NCBI GenBank assembly: GCA_023091665.1
Contig: JALJCQ010000020.1
Coordinates: 407,703-471,702 of the forward strand
Reading direction: 5' to 3'
DNA length: 64,000 nt
From: Pythium myriotylum
Lineage: Eukaryota; Oomycota; Peronosporomycetes; Pythiales; Pythiaceae
Shown here: positions 47,924-58,491 of the stretch, one piece after another
Numbering within the stretch: the first letter of the stretch is position 1
How the letters are laid out: every line of letters begins with the position of its first letter
Notes under the pieces: generated by a model
Database searches by the model: none
The model's input: only the letters and a program-made list of their open reading frames with translations
What the model was told of the DNA's origin: nothing
Program-made: the position numbers and the translations under genes

Positions 47924-49387
47924 TCACTCGCCACCGTGTCGCTCGCTCGAGGCTCGACGGCGCCGCGAGCGGTACGCGTTAAGTCGGCTCCGTTCGTGGG
48001 CGGGCGCGTTCTCGCTCAGGAACCTCGTGGTGACCACGTGAACGTCTGGAAAACGCCGTGCCACATCGAGGGCGGCGCTCTCGTCGCAAAGCAGCACGGC
48101 CACGACGATTCGACGCTCGTCGAGCCCGCTGAACACAAGCGAGTGGAGTAGGAACAGCAACTGTCGTGTTGTTGAAGCACTCGGTGCTCCACCTTCGTGG
48201 ACGAGATCGTCAATGAAGACGAAGACCGGGCTGTGTCGCAACGCCACGGCCGGCACGCGCGCTACAATTTCGACTTCGTCCTCGACAGCTCGTTGCTCGA
48301 CTTCACGCAGCGAAGCCGACGCAGAAGCCGGTTCGATCTGCAGGTACTCGTGCAGAAGCCGCGGGGCCTCATCGTCGCCGATCGCGAGCGCGAACGGATC
48401 GTACCGATCTGGCGCCTGGGAAAAGCTCCAACCGATCGTCTCCTCGAGTAGCAGCCGCGAGTGGCGCGCGACCGCTGCACGGAAAGCCGCGTCCGTGGCC
48501 TCTGGGTCCAGCAGCGTCGCAAGCAACCGACTCGTGGTCTGCGCGCTGATCTCGCGGTGGCTTGGCGGTCGCCGCGTTGTCTCGGCGCTTGTTGCAGCGT
48601 GGTCGGCTGGTGTTACGGCATCACTTTCGTCACTGTCATTGTCCTCCGACCGGAGACTTGGCGGTTGTCCGCCTGGCGGTTCGTGCCCGTCGGTCGTGCT
48701 TCCTTCAGCCGTCTCTGGCTCGGTCGTGCCGTGTGAGAGCCGCCGTCTCTTCTGGGCCTCCTCGCGGTGTTTGGCGTTGCTGCTGTTTTCGAGCATCTCG
48801 AGCATCTGACGGCGCTGTTTGAGGTTGGTGATGGCTGCGCGGCTCACATTGTACTCCTTGGCGAGGTCGGCCTGCTTCTCCCCACGGCGGATGCGTTCCA
48901 TGATATCACGTCGGTTCGACTCCGTGAGGTAGGGAGCCGACCGACCACGCGCTTTCGGCGGTCGTTCGCTCGACGACAACGATGACGCCGTTGCATTAGT
49001 TGAGATCGTCGCGGAGGTGAGACCGTTGGTGGTCGCTGGCGCCGCCGTCTCGCGATTGAGCAGCGACGCGAGCGAGGATGAGCGGCGAGACGACGCCGCT
49101 CGCGGCTCGGGCGACACGTCGCGCGGAGCTCGGTCGTAATACGTCTCGCTTCCCGCCGTGTGGAAGCGCGAAGGCTCGGCAGCGTAGTACCACTCGCCGT
49201 CGGGGCGCGCCCGCGGCCGCGAGAGATAGCTCAGTGGGCGGTCGTCGCCGTAAAAGTACTCGCGGTCCTCGGCAAAGTAGAGCGGCGATCTCCGCTCGGC
49301 TGAGCCGTCTCCTGCGGCTCCGGCGGCTGCTCCGGCGCCTCGATCTCCGCGCGAACGCAGGCTCGTGCTGGCCGTGGAGGCTCGCAT
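47924..49387 (-). CDS. HTH (Psq/CENP-B-like) protein fused to degenerate UPRTase-like domain, 1
   Basis: Intronless, 487 aa. An Arg/Ser/Ala-rich N terminus is followed by a helix-turn-helix at about residues 157-195 (RRDIMERIRRGEKQADLAKE and VSRAAITNLKQRR), typical of Psq/CENP-B-type domains. An acidic Ser/Glu linker leads to a domain at about 279-470 that resembles uracil phosphoribosyltransferase: RHSRLLLEETIGW (the RL.RLLLEEAL helix), VFVFIDDLVHEGG in place of the VDPMLATGGS PRPP loop, RIVVAVLL, and RRFPDVHVVTT (the FP.V.I.T strand). The Asp is kept but the ATGG core is lost, so catalysis is unlikely. The C terminus is basic. Inferred role: transcription factor with a nucleotide- or PRPP-sensing regulatory domain. 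A close relative lies at 53.3-54.5 kb. Confidence 0.8.
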   Translation of the reverse strand: MRASTASTSLRSRGDRGAGAAAGAAGDGSAERRSPLYFAEDREYFYGDDRPLSYLSRPRARPDGEWYYAAEPSRFHTAGSETYYDRAPRDVSPEPRAASSRRSSSLASLLNRETAAPATTNGLTSATISTNATASSLSSSERPPKARGRSAPYLTESNRRDIMERIRRGEKQADLAKEYNVSRAAITNLKQRRQMLEMLENSSNAKHREEAQKRRRLSHGTTEPETAEGSTTDGHEPPGGQPPSLRSEDNDSDESDAVTPADHAATSAETTRRPPSHREISAQTTSRLLATLLDPEATDAAFRAAVARHSRLLLEETIGWSFSQAPDRYDPFALAIGDDEAPRLLHEYLQIEPASASASLREVEQRAVEDEVEIVARVPAVALRHSPVFVFIDDLVHEGGAPSASTTRQLLFLLHSLVFSGLDERRIVVAVLLCDESAALDVARRFPDVHVVTTRFLSENAPAHERSRLNAYRSRRRRASSERHGGE

Positions 49388-51630
49388 TGTGGTTTCCGGG
49401 CGACTGGAAATCCCGCCGTGTTTCTGGCACAGAGGTGAGACCTTCAGAAAGCCATATCATGTGTCACATCCTGCAACGAGAGAGGAGACGAGAGGCCCGA
49501 TGAGGGGCGTTCGCTCACGCATATTAGTGTTCACAGGTCAAAGTTCTGTTGTGTTCCAGTCAATTTATGGAAGCGGGCAGCGTTTTCAAACGTTTGGTCC
49601 CCTTTCGCTCGAGGGAATTCATCCACCACCGCTCGACACCACTCGTCCGTTCAATCTCCCACCACGTGGTCATAGATGGAGGAGAAGACAGGAGGCGTCT
49701 CATTCAGCCTCTACTCTGGTCTGGCCACCACTGGTTGTCCCTTCACAGCGATCCACCGATTCTATTTCGACCCAAACTGACAGGACAAAGCACCCATCCC
49801 CGAAATATGCTTACGTGTCCACGGATGGCGAATTAGTCCTCCCCGTGGCCCATGACGAGAGGTGAGAACACGACGAGCGCGCTTGAAAGAGTCGAGTTTA
49901 CGCAGAGTGAGTGCCTCTAGTGTCCGTGTGCGTCATTTAATAAGGGGAAGACGTTTTCGACGTCGTCAGCAGTTCAGATGGTCACCAGTGATCATACGAA
50001 CGATCCTGTTCACTCGCGAGGCTGTTTCAATGTTGAGAATATCAGACCAGATCTCACTCGCAAGTTCTGGTCGTGGCATTTGGCTGCACGCGATGAGCAA
50101 AAAGTGCCCTCGTAAACTGATCGTAGCCAGGTATTTGCCGCGAACCAGCGAAATGCAACGCCGCGACACGGGTATTTCTAGCCCAAGCGCTAGGCAGCAT
50201 CCGACCAGGTTCAAACCATCAACTGCGCCTCTGAGATGCACAGCGAGGTTTTTATTACAACGCCGCCATGGTCGTGCGAGACACAACGAGACGAGTGAGG
50301 CGACGGACGTGGGGGCATGAAAGCCGCTGAAGCCCCCATCTTGACCCGGGCGATTGTCCGTGTTAGCGCGCCCGAGAATGGCCGACAGTTCCACCCAAAT
50401 TCGAACAGTTCTTTTCCTCCGTGTGATGCGTCCTCATCCCAAATTGACACCTGAGCACACGGCGTGCTCGTCGATCAGACTGATCAGACCATTGGGGGAA
50501 TCGCTCTTTAACCCCCTGTACTAGGAATCTTGCTTGATAGCATTCGCATAGGATCCTCGACTCAGTCATCCATCAGTCGGATCGAAAGCCTACCTCTCGT
50601 CGCGTGTCAGTGGACACCACAGATGTGACGTGAGCGCCATGAGTGATCTCTCTTCGCTGTGACGGACGGGAATACTGAGTGCTGTCAACAAGGCGTTACT
50701 TGTGACGAGAGAATAGCGATCTTCTGGACGAACAAAGGCTTGGGGAGAAGCGTGAAGAAGGGAGAGCGAACTCCAACAAATACTGGAGACCGTAATCAAT
50801 GGCGCAATCCGTTCCCCTCTTGAAAAGGATGGACTCATCGAATCTGCATTGGGAGGTCGCACCACTTTTGCTCTCCACTTGCCAGCTCGATTTGGTCGAG
50901 CATCCCCCCCCCCCCACTGGTGGTCGCAAGATCGCAACAAGTCGAGACAGCAGGCAGCATGGTGTTTTGACTGCGATTGAACAAAGAGGTTTTGGGTGGA
51001 GTGTACAGTATACAGATGTGCGAGAGATAGAGACCTTGTAAATTGATTGGAGACGAATGAGATCTATTGCAAGAGATGTCTCCATACGTATTGTGAGTAT
51101 GCAATCCAGCAGAGAGGTTGTTTACACATAAGGAGACGTCCTCCTCCCTCTTTCATCGTTTGGCTCGTGGGGCACTTTACCTCTTCAACGAGGAGATGCG
51201 GCAAATCCCTGGGAGAGTGAGTAACTACGACGCCAGCTTGCAACACTGCGACCACGGGGCACAATCACCGTCTGCGTAAGCGAACGTAACTCTGGCTCCA
51301 TCAGATCCTGAAGTGAGCTCTGCTTGGGGCATAATCAACCCACTTGTGAACCCACCATCAACCAGGACGTGTGGGCGTTATCGTCGCGAAAGATCACCAA
51401 AAGGTGATGACACTGTAATAATGTGAATCTTCCTGGGCTCACCTATTGTCACAGATAGGATGGGAAGTGATCTAGATCTGGTTTTTTTGAGCATCCTTGG
51501 TGCGTCAGCAAATGGAGACCATCCTACCTACCCAAACAGTTCATGGGTGCTTCCTACAGTACAAACCAAGCGCACTCGTGATCTTCCGACCTCATTCGTC
51601 AATCTTCCGAACCACGCAATAACGCCAATC
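49388..51630. other. Gene-poor region
   Basis: Upstream of the HTH gene and of the epoxide hydrolase. AAGGTCTCACCT on the gene strand lies about 50 nt before the HTH gene start. A C12 run occurs at 50904-50915. Other ORFs are short and unsupported. Confidence 0.45.
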
Positions 51631-52590
51631 ATGACGCAGCAATACGAGCACAAGTTTGCCAAAGTAAGTGAGACCGTCACGCTCCATTACGTCGACGTTG
51701 GCCCACGCGACGCCACGCCGATCGTGCTCGTCCACGGATGGCCCGACCTTTGGTTCGGCTGGCGCCATCAGATCGGTCCGCTCTCCGAAAAGTACCGCGT
51801 GATTGCACTCGACGTGCGAGGCCATGGAGACAGCTCGGCTCCGAAAGAGGTAGAGAACTACGGCTCGCAGACCATCACGAACGATCTCGCGCGGCTGCTC
51901 GACCACCTCGAAATTCCCAAGGCCGTGTTCTTTGGTCACGACTGGGGAGGAGCTATGGTCTACCGCATGGCGCTTTACCATCCAGATCGTGTGATCGCAC
52001 TCGGCAGTGTCTGCACGCCGTTCTACCCGCCACGACAGGAGTACTTGGACCTTGAAAAGCTCGCAGCGACGCACCCGACGCTCGCCTATCAGCAGTTCAT
52101 GGCACAGACCGAGTCGACATCCAAGATACTGGACGCGGCTCCGCGGCGCTGGTTTACGGCCTTGTTCCGGCGTCACTCGGAGCTCTTCAAAATCCATGGC
52201 TCTGTAGTCGACATGATCAAGGCGCTGCCAACGTCCGAGGCGGACTCGGCGTACACCGAGCGCTCCGAGCTCATGTCAGACGCCGAGTTGGACGTGTACG
52301 AGGCTGCATACAGCAAGACGGGCTTCTACTCGACGCTCAACTGGTACGCGACACGTGTAATCGACTTTGAAACTGAGAAGTCGCTGCCCACGACCATCAC
52401 GCACCGTGCGTTGTACATCGGCGCACGCAATGACGCCGTGCTGCCGCCCGAGATGGCGCAGCCCATGCCTCAGTTCATGCCCAACCTCGAGATGGTGATC
52501 ATTGACGACGCCGGACACTGGATTCTCTGGGAGCAACACGAAAAGGTCACCGAGACCATGCTCACGTGGCTCGAGAAGCTCGCGCCATGA
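51631..52590 (+). CDS. Epoxide hydrolase, alpha/beta-hydrolase fold
   Basis: Intronless, 319 aa, normal for soluble epoxide hydrolases. The oxyanion motif HGWP is at residues 35-38. RVIALDVRGHGDSSAP follows, and the nucleophile elbow GHDWGG has Asp104 as the expected nucleophile. A cap region with several Tyr follows. The late Asp (ARNDAVLP) and the His in DDAGHWILWEQ complete the triad. It opens epoxides to diols, likely in the cytosol, in lipid or xenobiotic metabolism. The ORF is open upstream to 51460, but the added residues lack conservation, so ATG 51631 is chosen. Confidence 0.93.
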   Translation: MTQQYEHKFAKVSETVTLHYVDVGPRDATPIVLVHGWPDLWFGWRHQIGPLSEKYRVIALDVRGHGDSSAPKEVENYGSQTITNDLARLLDHLEIPKAVFFGHDWGGAMVYRMALYHPDRVIALGSVCTPFYPPRQEYLDLEKLAATHPTLAYQQFMAQTESTSKILDAAPRRWFTALFRRHSELFKIHGSVVDMIKALPTSEADSAYTERSELMSDAELDVYEAAYSKTGFYSTLNWYATRVIDFETEKSLPTTITHRALYIGARNDAVLPPEMAQPMPQFMPNLEMVIIDDAGHWILWEQHEKVTETMLTWLEKLAP

Positions 52591-53252
52591 GGCGACTCGT
52601 GGAGAGATGGACCCGTAGACCAAGCTATAGAACTTAATCTCGTTGAAACTGAGCACGAGAAAATAGAATGAGTTGTCCTGCAAGACGAACGAATCCACGC
52701 CACGTCTCATGAGTCAAACTCACTTCCACTCTCAACTTCATGAAGCTGAGCTGCAACGCCTGACCACCTGTCACCGGAACTATGTTTTAGTTGAATGGTA
52801 GCCAAATACAGACAATGGGCCCATAACGTCAGCCGAGCTGCCTTCAAATGATCAATAATTGACCATTTGGCTCTCGTGCTTCAATTATTGAACCACGAGA
52901 GCCGATGTGTTTGGTCAGTCGAGAACGGGGTCGTGTGGATGCAATTGGTTGACATGCAATCGAAAATATTCGATGAATATGATTGGATTAATTGCCATTC
53001 TCATTTAATGGCCAATCACATCAAGATACCTCTTTCTTTCTATCGTATGTCTTTCTTTCGGATGGATGAGGCTGTCGTGGGTGTTGCTGTTCAAGACTGG
53101 AGACGCAATGATGACGTCCCGCCGACCGCCATCGCATTCGGAGGCAAGTCCTTCTGTGGCGTGGCGAATGTATCTATACAAACTACTAGGATCTTTAATT
53201 TAGTTCGAGCTTCTAAGCAATAATTGTGAACTACCAGTCTAAATCAATGAGA
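52591..53252. other. Intergenic region with inverted repeats
   Basis: Between the convergent epoxide hydrolase and second HTH gene. The clearest structure is the inverted-repeat cluster at 52852-52903. No gene is supported. Confidence 0.5.
52852..52903. repeat. Nested inverted repeats
   Basis: TCAATAATTGA (52852-52862) is the reverse complement of TCAATTATTGA (52881-52891). GGCTCTCGTG (52869-52878) pairs with CACGAGAGCC (52894-52903). The two hairpins overlap and are mutually exclusive. Confidence 0.7.
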
Positions 53253-54540
53253 TCAGAGCCGAGACTGCAGAAGCTGGACGAGATCCGTTTCGCTCCGGCC
53301 CGCACACTCGAGCTTGGTCGTAAGCAAGGCACTGATACGTGGGAATGCATCGGCCACGCGCACGAAGCCTCGCTCGTAGGCTGCGAGGGTAGCGACGACG
53401 ATGTTTTGCGGGTCCACGCCATTCCGTTTGAGAGCCTAGTCAGTGCCACAGCACTCATCAGTCTCAGCTGGCTTCTCAAAAGGCTGATTGCTAGAAACTC
53501 ACCTCAACAGCCGAAATGATTTCGATTCCCGACTCTGAGCCGGTGGCGTCCAACAACAAGACACTCGCGGCCGTGAGCTGTGCCGGTGGCTCGGTTAGTG
53601 ATGCCGTGACGCCCGACGACGTTCTGGTCGGCGTGATCGTGATCGTGGAGACCTCGCAGCGCGGTTCGATGGCTCGGAACTCGTCCAGAAGCAGCTGACC
53701 GCCGACGCTACCGCCCACCGCGACAGCACAAACAGGCCGAGCGTACGTGACACCGTAAAAGCGACCAGGTCGAGAGATCTCGCTGTTGAGCGATCGTGGT
53801 GTGATCTCGATCGGGTGCGTGGGCAGGAAGCTGAGGGCTTCTTCAAGAAGCAGCCGCATGAGCCGCCGCGCTGCGACGTGAAAAGCACTGTCGTTGAACT
53901 GGAGCTTCGTGAAGAGCATCGCAGACGAAGCCACGCGGACCTCGCGCACGACGTTGGCGTGCCACCTCGTGACCTGAGGCCGTGATGGAGATGAGAGCCG
54001 CAGCGGCGCGAGTCTCTCAGATGGCGAGAAGCTGGATGACGACGAGGAGATCGGAAGTGAGAAGCGGAGACTCGACTGATGCGACCGGGGAAGCGGCTCC
54101 GAGCTAGCCGACTCGTCGCTGCTGTGGTCTACGCGAAGTCGGCGCAGACGGTCAGCGCCTTCAGCTTCTTCGGTCCGCGGCGACTCGGCGCGTTGGCGGT
54201 CCTTCATCCTCCGCCGCTGCTTGAGATTCGAAATGGCAGCTCGACTGACCTGGTACTCCTTGGCGAGGTCGGCCTGCTTTTCTCCGTTCTGAATACGCCG
54301 CAGGATATTGCGGCGGTCGACCTCGCGTAGATAGCGCGACGTGCGCAAAGGCGCCGGACGCGCTGAGGGACTCGCGCCGGCGTCGCGCTTGGCAGCCTTG
54401 AGTGGCGAGTCGTTGTAGAGCGGAGACGACACACTCGAGGGCTTGCGCACACTGTGCTCGTAGCGTCGGGCTTCGTCCAAGTCGTCGAGCGGTGTGCGGG
54501 GGCGCAGGAACGCCGTGAAGCCTGGGAGTCTGTCGTCCAT
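53253..54540 (-). CDS. HTH (Psq/CENP-B-like) protein fused to degenerate UPRTase-like domain, 2
   Basis: Two exons on the minus strand, 53503-54540 and 53253-53435 (406 aa), with a 67-nt GTGAGT..TAG intron. The HTH lies at about residues 74-111 (RRNILRRIQNGEKQADLAKE, VSRAAISNLKQRR). A Ser-rich linker leads to a UPRTase-like domain at about 193-400: HANVVREVRV, AARRLMRLLLEEALSFLP, VCAVAVGGSVGGQLL (the VPILRAG region), and ASVLLLDATGSESG (PRPP loop, with PMLATGGS shortened or altered). The spliced C-terminal end has ALKRNGVDPQNIVVATLAAY and FVRVADAFPRI. Splicing restores the conserved strand order, which supports the exon model. The catalytic loop is degenerate. Inferred role is a regulator with a PRTase-derived sensor. 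Confidence 0.85.
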
Positions 54541-55932: not shown

Positions 55933-58491
55933 TTAGACTACCTGCACACGCTCTGTCTCTTCGCCACGCGGCGGCCTTTCACTGGTGGTTTCTTCTCTGA
56001 GAACGCTCGTGCGATCCTCGATGTGGGTCAACGAGATCGCGGAAATCTCGAAGTCTTCCAGCTTGCGAGACTTTTGCGTCTCGGACGGCTCGACCACACT
56101 TCGATGAAGTAGTGTCGACGGGAACTGTCCGTCGTCGAGCATTACACGGGCAATAGCCTGAGGAGCTGTGATGGCCCTTAAAGGATCTCCTTCCTTGGGC
56201 GAAACCAACATTGGTCTCAAGACAGCGACGAGGAGCCCAAGCACGAGCACCGCACAACCAATGAACGTGAGCCATGCGTTTTGATTCGGCACTGACAGCC
56301 ACACGACGATATCCTGTGTGTTGCGGTCAAAGCGAAGCGTCGCCTTGGTCGCAGATAGCTGGACTGTGTCTCGGACCTTTGCGTTCTGGAAGAGGAAAAA
56401 AGTAGCGGCCGTGTAGGCGACCTGAAAGCCGTGCTCGATGTAGACGTGGTTGTTAAGTTTGGTGAAGAGGATCGACTCGACGTCAGCGTCACACTCGTCC
56501 GATACGGTCTCGTTCACCCATTCAACTCGCGCAATATTGTGGGGGAGCAGTACATCTCCAGAGTCGGTAAGAGTAGTGCCAGACGGCTCCTTAAGCTCGA
56601 CCAAAGGGACCGAACGTGGCATCAAGGAATGAATTTGTGTAGACGGCACGATCTGACGCGTTGGTAGTTCGTCCGCACTGAGGACAAGCTGCTGGTCACT
56701 GTACAGGGCGGGTGTCTCGCCGTCTGAGCTGAGTGACGAAGATGCCAAAGGCAGTTGCAAGCCTCGACACTTGCTCTTTGTATCCTTGCACTCAGCGTTG
56801 AAGACACTCGAAAGGTCTTCTAGCTTCCAAGACAGGCGCCCGACAGTGATCGTGTACACTTTGCGAAGATTCGTGATGAGCGCAGGCTTCTCTACGTATT
56901 CATCTGAGGAGTTGTCCGATTTGTTCTGAGCAAGCGAGTCAGCGACCAAGCGTTTGCCGATTGAAAGGATCATCATGGACGACGCCGACGTGTTTTCGCA
57001 GCGAAACTGGTAGTCCCCGAATCCCCGTGACCAGAGCTCTTCTCCTCCACTCTGATTCACACACGAACTGAACGCGTGGACTTGCTGGGGTGGTTCCATA
57101 GCACTCTGTAATTGCCTTGCTCTGTAGATCGGCTTACTCACAAGACAGAGGGCCGGCCACGGACCGCAGTTTTGGTTCGAACCAGGGGCGTTTGCCTGTA
57201 GGATCTGGGTCGAACGCGTCGTGTTGTCTCGGCCAATGCGCGTGGCTAGCACTCTCGGATCGACGTCGACCTCCAGCGTGACTGCCTCAAATGCAACAGA
57301 CGGCGAGATGTCAACATGGGAAAACGTCATCGCGATGTCGCTTTTGGACGTGTTGGTCGCGTTAGTGAGCTGACGCAGGACTGCCGCTGCACTTGTACGA
57401 AGGAACCAGTCGCGCCGCTTCTCCTCGTTTGCCAGCGGAGAGGGCGGAAGTAATCCCGAGACTTTAGCGCTCGGCTCGATCACGCTCATGTTTCTATCGC
57501 GAAGATTCTTGACGGGATATCTCTTGTTCAAGTCCTCTTTGTCAACGAAGTCACCGACGCCACCCCATGGGAAATTCTGCGGCACCACGGCCATCATGTA
57601 CAGGAACAGGTCGGCGGCAGCTGTGGCGTCCATCGGAAGGTCGGTGGTGTTGACATCGTCGTTGGCGCTGCTGTTCGTTGGGTTTACGATATAGCGAAGG
57701 GTCTTAGGCTCTAGTGCTTCCTGCAGCACTCGACTTTGCCAGTCACGCTGCGAGAAACCGTAGTCGATTGTGGGCATCGGAGGCGGGTCGTAACGCTCCC
57801 AGCGTGTCTGAGCCCAGTCGCAGATCTCCTGCTTGAGTATCACGCGCGGCAGCACCACACTCCGAAGCACCGTGTTGGAGATTAAGTTCCGAGTAGTCAG
57901 CTCCGAGACAGTCTTCGCGACAGTCGTGGTCCTTGCCACGACGTTCTGCCCGAGCTGCGTCGACAGGGCGAGATCATCAGGGTAGATCACAGCGTGGATC
58001 TCTTGTGGACGCAACTGCACGTTGAGTGCGTTGAACGCGTTGCTGATGAGGTATCCGGTCCCTGCGGCGAGTGCGAGCACTGCCGGTCCAAGTTTCCAAC
58101 TTGCAGTCGGCTGTGTGAACGCGTGAGCCATGAAACGTAGCGTGACAATTTGCGCGAGCACCGCCACGAGCATCTCAATGGGTTTGCCGAATGCGGAGGC
58201 AACGTTGGCAGAGTACGAGTTATAGTCGTCCAGCAGTCGAGCTCTCTCCGTCGCGTTCTTTTGGCTGTTTTCGAACCGCGAGATCTCAACACCGTGATTA
58301 AACGTGAATACGAGGCCGACGATGAGACCGATGGCGACGGTTGTGACGAGAAGCGCTCGACCACGACGAATGGCCACTGCGACCGTCAGAGTTTGGGTCT
58401 TAGTGTCTTGTGTGTCCATGGCCTGTGTGCGAAGGATCTTGAAATTCTGACAATGACGATTCGAAAACGCGAGTTGTGCCGAGCTGACCAT
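55933..58491 (-). CDS. Large multi-pass membrane protein with glycosylated ectodomain (unrecognised)
   Basis: Intronless, 852 aa, or 828 aa from the second ATG at 58419 (MDTQDTK). Three N-terminal hydrophobic helices lie near residues 46-66, 108-125 and 137-157. A large extracytoplasmic region has many Cys and N-x-S/T sites (NPTNSS, NATNTS, NKSDNSS). One C-terminal helix (WLTFIGCAVLVLGLLVAVL) precedes a charged Ser/Glu-rich cytoplasmic tail. I do not recognise the family; oomycetes have large lineage-specific membrane protein families of this type. A truncated paralogous 3' end lies just upstream on the other strand at 58.83 kb. Confidence 0.8.
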   Translation of the reverse strand: MVSSAQLAFSNRHCQNFKILRTQAMDTQDTKTQTLTVAVAIRRGRALLVTTVAIGLIVGLVFTFNHGVEISRFENSQKNATERARLLDDYNSYSANVASAFGKPIEMLVAVLAQIVTLRFMAHAFTQPTASWKLGPAVLALAAGTGYLISNAFNALNVQLRPQEIHAVIYPDDLALSTQLGQNVVARTTTVAKTVSELTTRNLISNTVLRSVVLPRVILKQEICDWAQTRWERYDPPPMPTIDYGFSQRDWQSRVLQEALEPKTLRYIVNPTNSSANDDVNTTDLPMDATAAADLFLYMMAVVPQNFPWGGVGDFVDKEDLNKRYPVKNLRDRNMSVIEPSAKVSGLLPPSPLANEEKRRDWFLRTSAAAVLRQLTNATNTSKSDIAMTFSHVDISPSVAFEAVTLEVDVDPRVLATRIGRDNTTRSTQILQANAPGSNQNCGPWPALCLVSKPIYRARQLQSAMEPPQQVHAFSSCVNQSGGEELWSRGFGDYQFRCENTSASSMMILSIGKRLVADSLAQNKSDNSSDEYVEKPALITNLRKVYTITVGRLSWKLEDLSSVFNAECKDTKSKCRGLQLPLASSSLSSDGETPALYSDQQLVLSADELPTRQIVPSTQIHSLMPRSVPLVELKEPSGTTLTDSGDVLLPHNIARVEWVNETVSDECDADVESILFTKLNNHVYIEHGFQVAYTAATFFLFQNAKVRDTVQLSATKATLRFDRNTQDIVVWLSVPNQNAWLTFIGCAVLVLGLLVAVLRPMLVSPKEGDPLRAITAPQAIARVMLDDGQFPSTLLHRSVVEPSETQKSRKLEDFEISAISLTHIEDRTSVLREETTSERPPRGEETERVQVV

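Follow-up and report, generated by a model that had tools for sequence, protein, structure and literature searches.

Bacterial PurR and PyrR undergo ligand-gated switching, and PurR is defined by a helix-turn-helix (HTH) N-terminal to a phosphoribosyltransferase (PRTase) fold that keeps its phosphoribosyl pyrophosphate (PRPP) motif. Uracil phosphoribosyltransferases (UPRTases) form dimers or higher oligomers, and HTH proteins of the CENP-B/Psq type carry a DDE/CENP-B dimerisation domain or a BTB domain as the partner of the HTH. In a 64,000-nucleotide stretch of the Pythium myriotylum genome (GenBank assembly GCA_023091665.1, contig JALJCQ010000020.1, positions 407,703 to 471,702 of the forward strand), referred to here as the window, two genes, A and B, each encode an HTH followed by a degenerate UPRTase-like domain. 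The most probable reading, to which we assign a probability of about 0.62, is that the encoded proteins are sequence-specific transcription regulators in which two HTHs are held as a dimer by a predicted-dead UPRTase domain. The fusion itself, its occurrence in many oomycetes, the loss of catalytic motifs, and a conservation that is stronger in the HTH than in the UPRTase domain are seen in the sequences. For the window proteins the UPRTase fold is a prediction, and a regulatory role is plausible.

Both genes lie on the minus strand, with the following features in window coordinates:

47924..49387, minus strand: gene A coding sequence, a single exon and uninterrupted open reading frame (ORF) of 487 residues (ORF list, Pfam, structure model)
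48800..48937, minus strand: gene A HTH, residues ~151-196 (alignment, weak Pfam matches, three predicted helices)
47939..48574, minus strand: gene A predicted UPRTase-fold domain, residues ~272-483
48170..48211, minus strand: gene A PRPP-loop remnant with insertion, from DDLVHEGGAPSAST (alignments)
53503..54540, minus strand: gene B exon 1, with the HTH, the linker and the first ~70% of the UPRTase domain (ORF list, Pfam, splice prediction)
53436..53502, minus strand: gene B predicted intron, 67 nt, GT..AG (GTGAGT...CTAG)
53253..53435, minus strand: gene B exon 2, the rest of the UPRTase domain and the stop codon
54205..54339, minus strand: gene B HTH, residues ~68-112 (Pfam matches under cut-off, alignment)
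53524..53550, minus strand: gene B degenerate PRPP loop, DATGSESGI (alignments)

The ORF, Pfam matches, and structure model of gene A give the order N-terminal region, HTH, Ser/acidic linker, and degenerate UPRTase domain. The first ORF of gene B encodes 349 residues (53491-54540, minus strand), and removal of the 67-nt intron proposed in the initial annotation yields a protein of 406 residues with a stop codon that ends at 53253. With this removal the Pfam UPRTase match rises from 25.9 bits (E 8.2e-6, cut-off 27) to 53.4 bits (E 3.2e-14), and because the score doubles, the intron and the UPRTase domain are independently supported. The same profile matches gene A weakly (E 0.025), and no Pfam family matches the gene A core at E<=0.01 in the Pfam scan. 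The assignment of gene A is therefore a prediction that draws on its structure model and its homologues. The predicted models of gene A and of P0096, a relative of gene B from Pythium oligandrum (a species described as non-pathogenic in PMC8303654), match the UPRTase folds of Toxoplasma (1upf, 1bd3, 1jls) and Candida Fur1p (7rh8), in agreement with the UPRTase-like order originally proposed for the C-terminal regions. These models were built with alignments of the gene A core with 70 sequences (A3) and of P0096 as query with 59 (A4), drawn from 110 database proteins. No bacterial PurR is among the 50 fold matches listed, which says nothing either way. Genes A and B are 63% identical in the HTH (49 compared columns) and 24% identical in the UPRTase regions.

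The initial annotation described two paralogues, a number that falls well short of the at least 17 loci in the genome where an HTH precedes a UPRTase domain. Besides the two window genes on C20, C15 has seven of these loci, C17 four, C13 three, and C1 one. The Pfam UPRTase profile matches 23 stretches of the 58.7-Mb genome, among them 15 of the 17 fusion loci; gene B is included and gene A is absent. Gene A was counted in by its predicted fold and C17b by an in-house profile. A 61-residue HTH query finds at least 21 places in the genome, and 17 of them are followed by a UPRTase domain. Eleven of the 17 fusions are single ORFs across both domains, while the domain is completed only after intron removal in gene B, in C13c, and in all four genes on C17; the introns of five multi-exon paralogues were chosen to raise the in-house profile score, an upward bias in the scores of these five. 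C13a (L001), which is the least derived member, has Pfam matches to UPRTase (3.1e-39) and to CENP-B_N (5.8e-5, over the cut-off) and aligns with Toxoplasma UPRTase across the whole domain at 8.1e-29. Mean identity among the 17 paralogues is 62% in the HTH and 28% in the UPRTase domain, and thus the DNA-reading part is held while its partner domain varies.

The fusion recurs outside P. myriotylum. A gene A query returned five database proteins, including three from Pythium insidiosum and one from [Pythium] brassicae, and the core of C15f returned 93 relatives, with all 50 of the organism-named ones from oomycetes (Phytophthora, Nothophytophthora, Plasmopara, Pythium, Globisporangium, Lagenidium, and Albugo). 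A precomputed UPRTase domain is present in 90 of these 93 and both this domain and an HTH signature in 82, which confirms the fusion as a family trait. An alignment-based search gave 13 matches, eight of which span 64-94% of C13a at 46-61% identity. Each database search scored the ~8,000 candidates that share most words with the query, and says nothing on presence elsewhere. The 11 single-ORF fusions and the 82 relatives with both domains contradict the HTH and UPRTase parts being separate genes, and recurrence at 17 loci and in other species led us to reject an assembly or gene-model artefact.

A quick 58-row tree, with no resolution at 22 of its 55 inner branches, places genes A and B in a nine-row clade with Pythium and two further relatives (Shimodaira-Hasegawa-like approximate likelihood ratio test, SH-aLRT, 100). 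One P. insidiosum model (P0001) contains two consecutive HTH modules, of which the second is a gene A homologue. The first is closest by identity to gene B (43%), yet the tree groups it with gene A (SH-aLRT 84), and whether it is gene B-like is unsure. P0001 is likely an artefact in which two adjacent HTH-UPRTase genes were merged into one model. Because it holds these two modules, P. insidiosum probably also has a tandem pair of fusion genes.

The broken PRPP loop noted originally in genes A and B is common to the family. Motif counts come from one MAFFT alignment of Toxoplasma UPRTase with 127 proteins, 17 of our own and 110 from the database, in which the 116 of 127 rows covering more than 70% of the domain were kept and 11 dropped; residues are numbered along the printed 1upf chain sequence and not by PDB numbering. 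The PRPP-loop Gly151 is kept in none of the 116 rows and is Asp or Glu in 59. Arg92 of the pyrophosphate loop (RAG) is kept in 2 of 113 rows, with gene A reading IDDEAPRL and gene B reading VGGGGQLL in these columns, while the flexible-loop Arg117 is kept in 12 of 109 rows and the uracil-loop Asp215 in 6 of 109. Genes A and B lack the uracil loop PG.GD.GDR, much of which survives in C13a, C13b, and several relatives; most C13a-type members shown have PG.GNF..RY or near. Among 73 representatives, R48 (72/73), E55 (71/73), and R219 (63 of the 67 having a residue) are kept, and new family residues appear at P106 (69/73), F101 (66/73), and E105 (51/73), with F101 and P106 standing after the pyrophosphate loop. 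From these sequences we infer that the UPRTase domain is catalytically dead, but the residue pattern is that of an altered protein still under constraint, and not one of decay.

On sequence grounds, it is the relatives, and not the window genes themselves, that make the HTH CENP-B-like. CENP-B_N exceeds its cut-off in C13a, C13b, L004, and P0100 and reaches E<=0.01 in 15 of the 71 A3 members. Gene A has weak Pfam matches to HTH_28, HTH_23, and CENP-B_N (12.9 bits for the last, cut-off 21.2), and gene B has matches under the cut-offs to HTH_28 (E 0.0036) and HTH_23 (E 0.0077), with CENP-B_N unlisted in its Pfam scan. The Psq half of the proposed Psq/CENP-B-like label is not clearly supported, as HTH_psq (which we take to be PF05225) is unlisted in Pfam scans of the window proteins, paralogues, and relatives. 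A three-helix arrangement is predicted in the gene A core (helices at residues 9-20, 25-31, and 36-69; block means 93-97 over residues 11-50). Against PDB sequences, the HTH alone gave two uninformative matches (E 0.055 and 1), and a C13a query matched Drosophila CG11849 (2elh) over the HTH at E 0.18.

In the mechanism that we favour, the HTH would bind DNA in the nucleus and the UPRTase fold would dimerise, joining two HTHs; what is left of the pocket may accommodate another metabolite. Metabolite binding may be most likely in the least derived paralogues, C13a and C13b, whose uracil loop is largely kept, and least likely in genes A and B, where this loop too is lost. Several observations weigh against a regulator with a dead UPRTase domain. 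The HTHs of the window genes reach Pfam HTH models only below cut-off, and the motif counts rest on a single alignment. Loss of the active site is incomplete, as 71 of 116 rows retain Asp144, and 49 of 127 rows have Gly at position 150, which is Ala in Toxoplasma and adjoins the lost Gly151; bacterial ATGGS enzymes have Gly at both positions. Gene A contains DDLVHEGGA, which resembles the PRPP motif DDLLATGGT, yet it falls in an insertion, and homologues P0002 and P0003 have no GG at this site. The window shows no enrichment of GTTAAC, with 3 sites against 6.2 expected, and a search of the window found none near genes A or B. In vitro DNA binding by some Phytophthora infestans CENPB/Psq proteins is reported in PMC11267843, and the palindromes bound on those arrays fit dimers; the link to the present family is a lead only. 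The array constructs described there consist of the DNA-binding domain and 50 flanking residues on each side, so the palindromes do not require a UPRTase domain. The word 'phosphoribosyl' is absent from that main text, and the array proteins are not tied there to UPRTase; the family member PITG_11803 is unnamed in the same paper, and has no CENP-B_N match at E<=1. A link of the array proteins PITG_00015, 00016, and 12296 to this family was not obtained, as none is among the named matches listed for three protein searches, and a literature search on them turned up only PMC11267843.

The main rival is a ligand-gated regulator, in which a UPRTase pocket with changed specificity senses a pyrimidine or other metabolite and thereby switches DNA binding; it is possible but on the doubtful side. 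The UPRTase fold predicted in both members modelled, the recurrent charge change at Gly151, the near-invariant new F101 and P106 together with the retention of Asp144, and the PG.GNF..RY-type loop of the C13a-type members all fit such a sensor. The uracil loop is missing, however, from both window genes and most members, and the PRPP-loop insertions of gene A and its homologue are unlike, that of P. insidiosum P0002 being longer at the same site. The PRPP-responsive switch suggested initially is disfavoured, with the PRPP loop, the pyrophosphate-loop Arg, and the flexible-loop Arg lost in nearly all members. A broader version, for which we see rather little likelihood, has oomycetes recruiting a nucleobase-salvage enzyme as the sensing half of an extensive transcription-factor family, with a near-constant DNA-binding helix and a UPRTase pocket re-specialised in each paralogue, so that many pseudo-enzymes, tuned to different metabolites or partners and in part paired as mixed dimers, would read a single DNA element.

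That the HTH is instead domesticated from a CENP-B/pogo-type transposase, binding repeats or silencing mobile DNA with the UPRTase domain as a passive scaffold, appears improbable. The CENP-B_N matches over cut-off in four members would suit this origin, as would HTH-only relatives on C18, two of which have weak matches to CENP-B_N and HTH_Tnp_4, but Pfam lists no transposase catalytic domain for any family member scanned. Least credible of all is a divergent UPRTase still making uridine monophosphate near a target, with the HTH as a DNA- or RNA-binding appendage. The name uracil phosphoribosyltransferase on 19 of the 93 relatives and the match of C13a to a true UPRTase speak for it; Gly151 is missing from all 116 rows and the pyrophosphate-loop Arg from 111 of 113, which disfavours an active enzyme, and a separate UPRTase gene with all four motifs (IIRAG, QRDETS, DPMLATAGSV, and PGLGDYGDRYF) exists elsewhere in the genome (L012). 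We retain the transcription regulator dimerised by a dead UPRTase domain as the preferred reading.

Gene A's start and gene B's stop are 3.9 kb apart, and the gene between them is the epoxide hydrolase of the initial annotation:

51460..52590, plus strand: epoxide-hydrolase-like alpha/beta hydrolase (Abhydrolase_1 E 4.6e-35; EHN, the epoxide-hydrolase N terminus, E 9.3e-5), outside the fusion family

Just beyond gene B, at 55933-58491 on the minus strand, is an 852-residue ORF with hydrophobic stretches by eye. Elsewhere in the genome, C18 has four short HTH-only copies of the YLKEKQRCEIVRRVRAGEKQAHLAKEFGVSRAAV type (L040, C18:479500-489300), one match containing an internal TAG, where the genome Pfam UPRTase search gave no match; the cluster adjoins an ORF that looks Myb-like by eye. 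L014 has the UPRTase-type VPILRAGLGM. A UPRTase-like gene in pieces (L013, C12:1363000-1367000) has PGIGDFEDRY, with RAG and CATAGS absent from its tblastn alignment, and an HTH pattern search of the stretch found nothing; it is possibly a stand-alone degenerate UPRTase. At L016 (C15:1262000-1265500), two adjacent, very similar ORFs with LATGGT loops, resembling adenine phosphoribosyltransferases, are probably a recent tandem duplication.

If our reading is correct, the enzyme name carried by 19 of the 93 relatives would mislead metabolic models, and the role of the dead enzyme would be directly testable, as array data on oomycete HTH proteins are in print (PMC11267843). Domain fusions in oomycetes were described by Morris et al, 2009 (PMC2705460), who list among them a fusion of orotidine monophosphate decarboxylase with orotate phosphoribosyltransferase (OMPDC-OPRT); the main text is without 'uracil', 'helix-turn-helix', 'DNA-binding', and 'homeodomain'. 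No description of an HTH-UPRTase fusion is among the literature matches listed for fusion-related terms or PurR/PyrR.

The family resembles eukaryotic UPRTases (Toxoplasma, Candida Fur1p) in the whole-domain sequence match of C13a and the fold matches of gene A and P0096, but differs in its fused HTH and in the loss of the PRPP, pyrophosphate, and flexible loops and mostly of the uracil loop. Judged from sequence, it descends from UPRTase and fails the catalytic features of that family. With CENP-B/Psq HTH proteins it shares CENP-B_N matches over cut-off in some members, whereas its C-terminal partner is a UPRTase fold and the window genes are below that cut-off. Like bacterial PurR, it has a DNA-binding-type domain N-terminal to a PRTase fold. 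In contrast to Bacillus-type PurR and PyrR, its PRTase is of UPRTase type, its HTH is of another type, its PRPP motif is lost, and it is a eukaryotic multigene family; because of the lost PRPP motif we do not file it as a PurR member. If true, our reading would mean that a eukaryotic lineage reached a PurR-like plan from different parts, with at least 17 genes in one genome, the enzyme dead and its fold kept.
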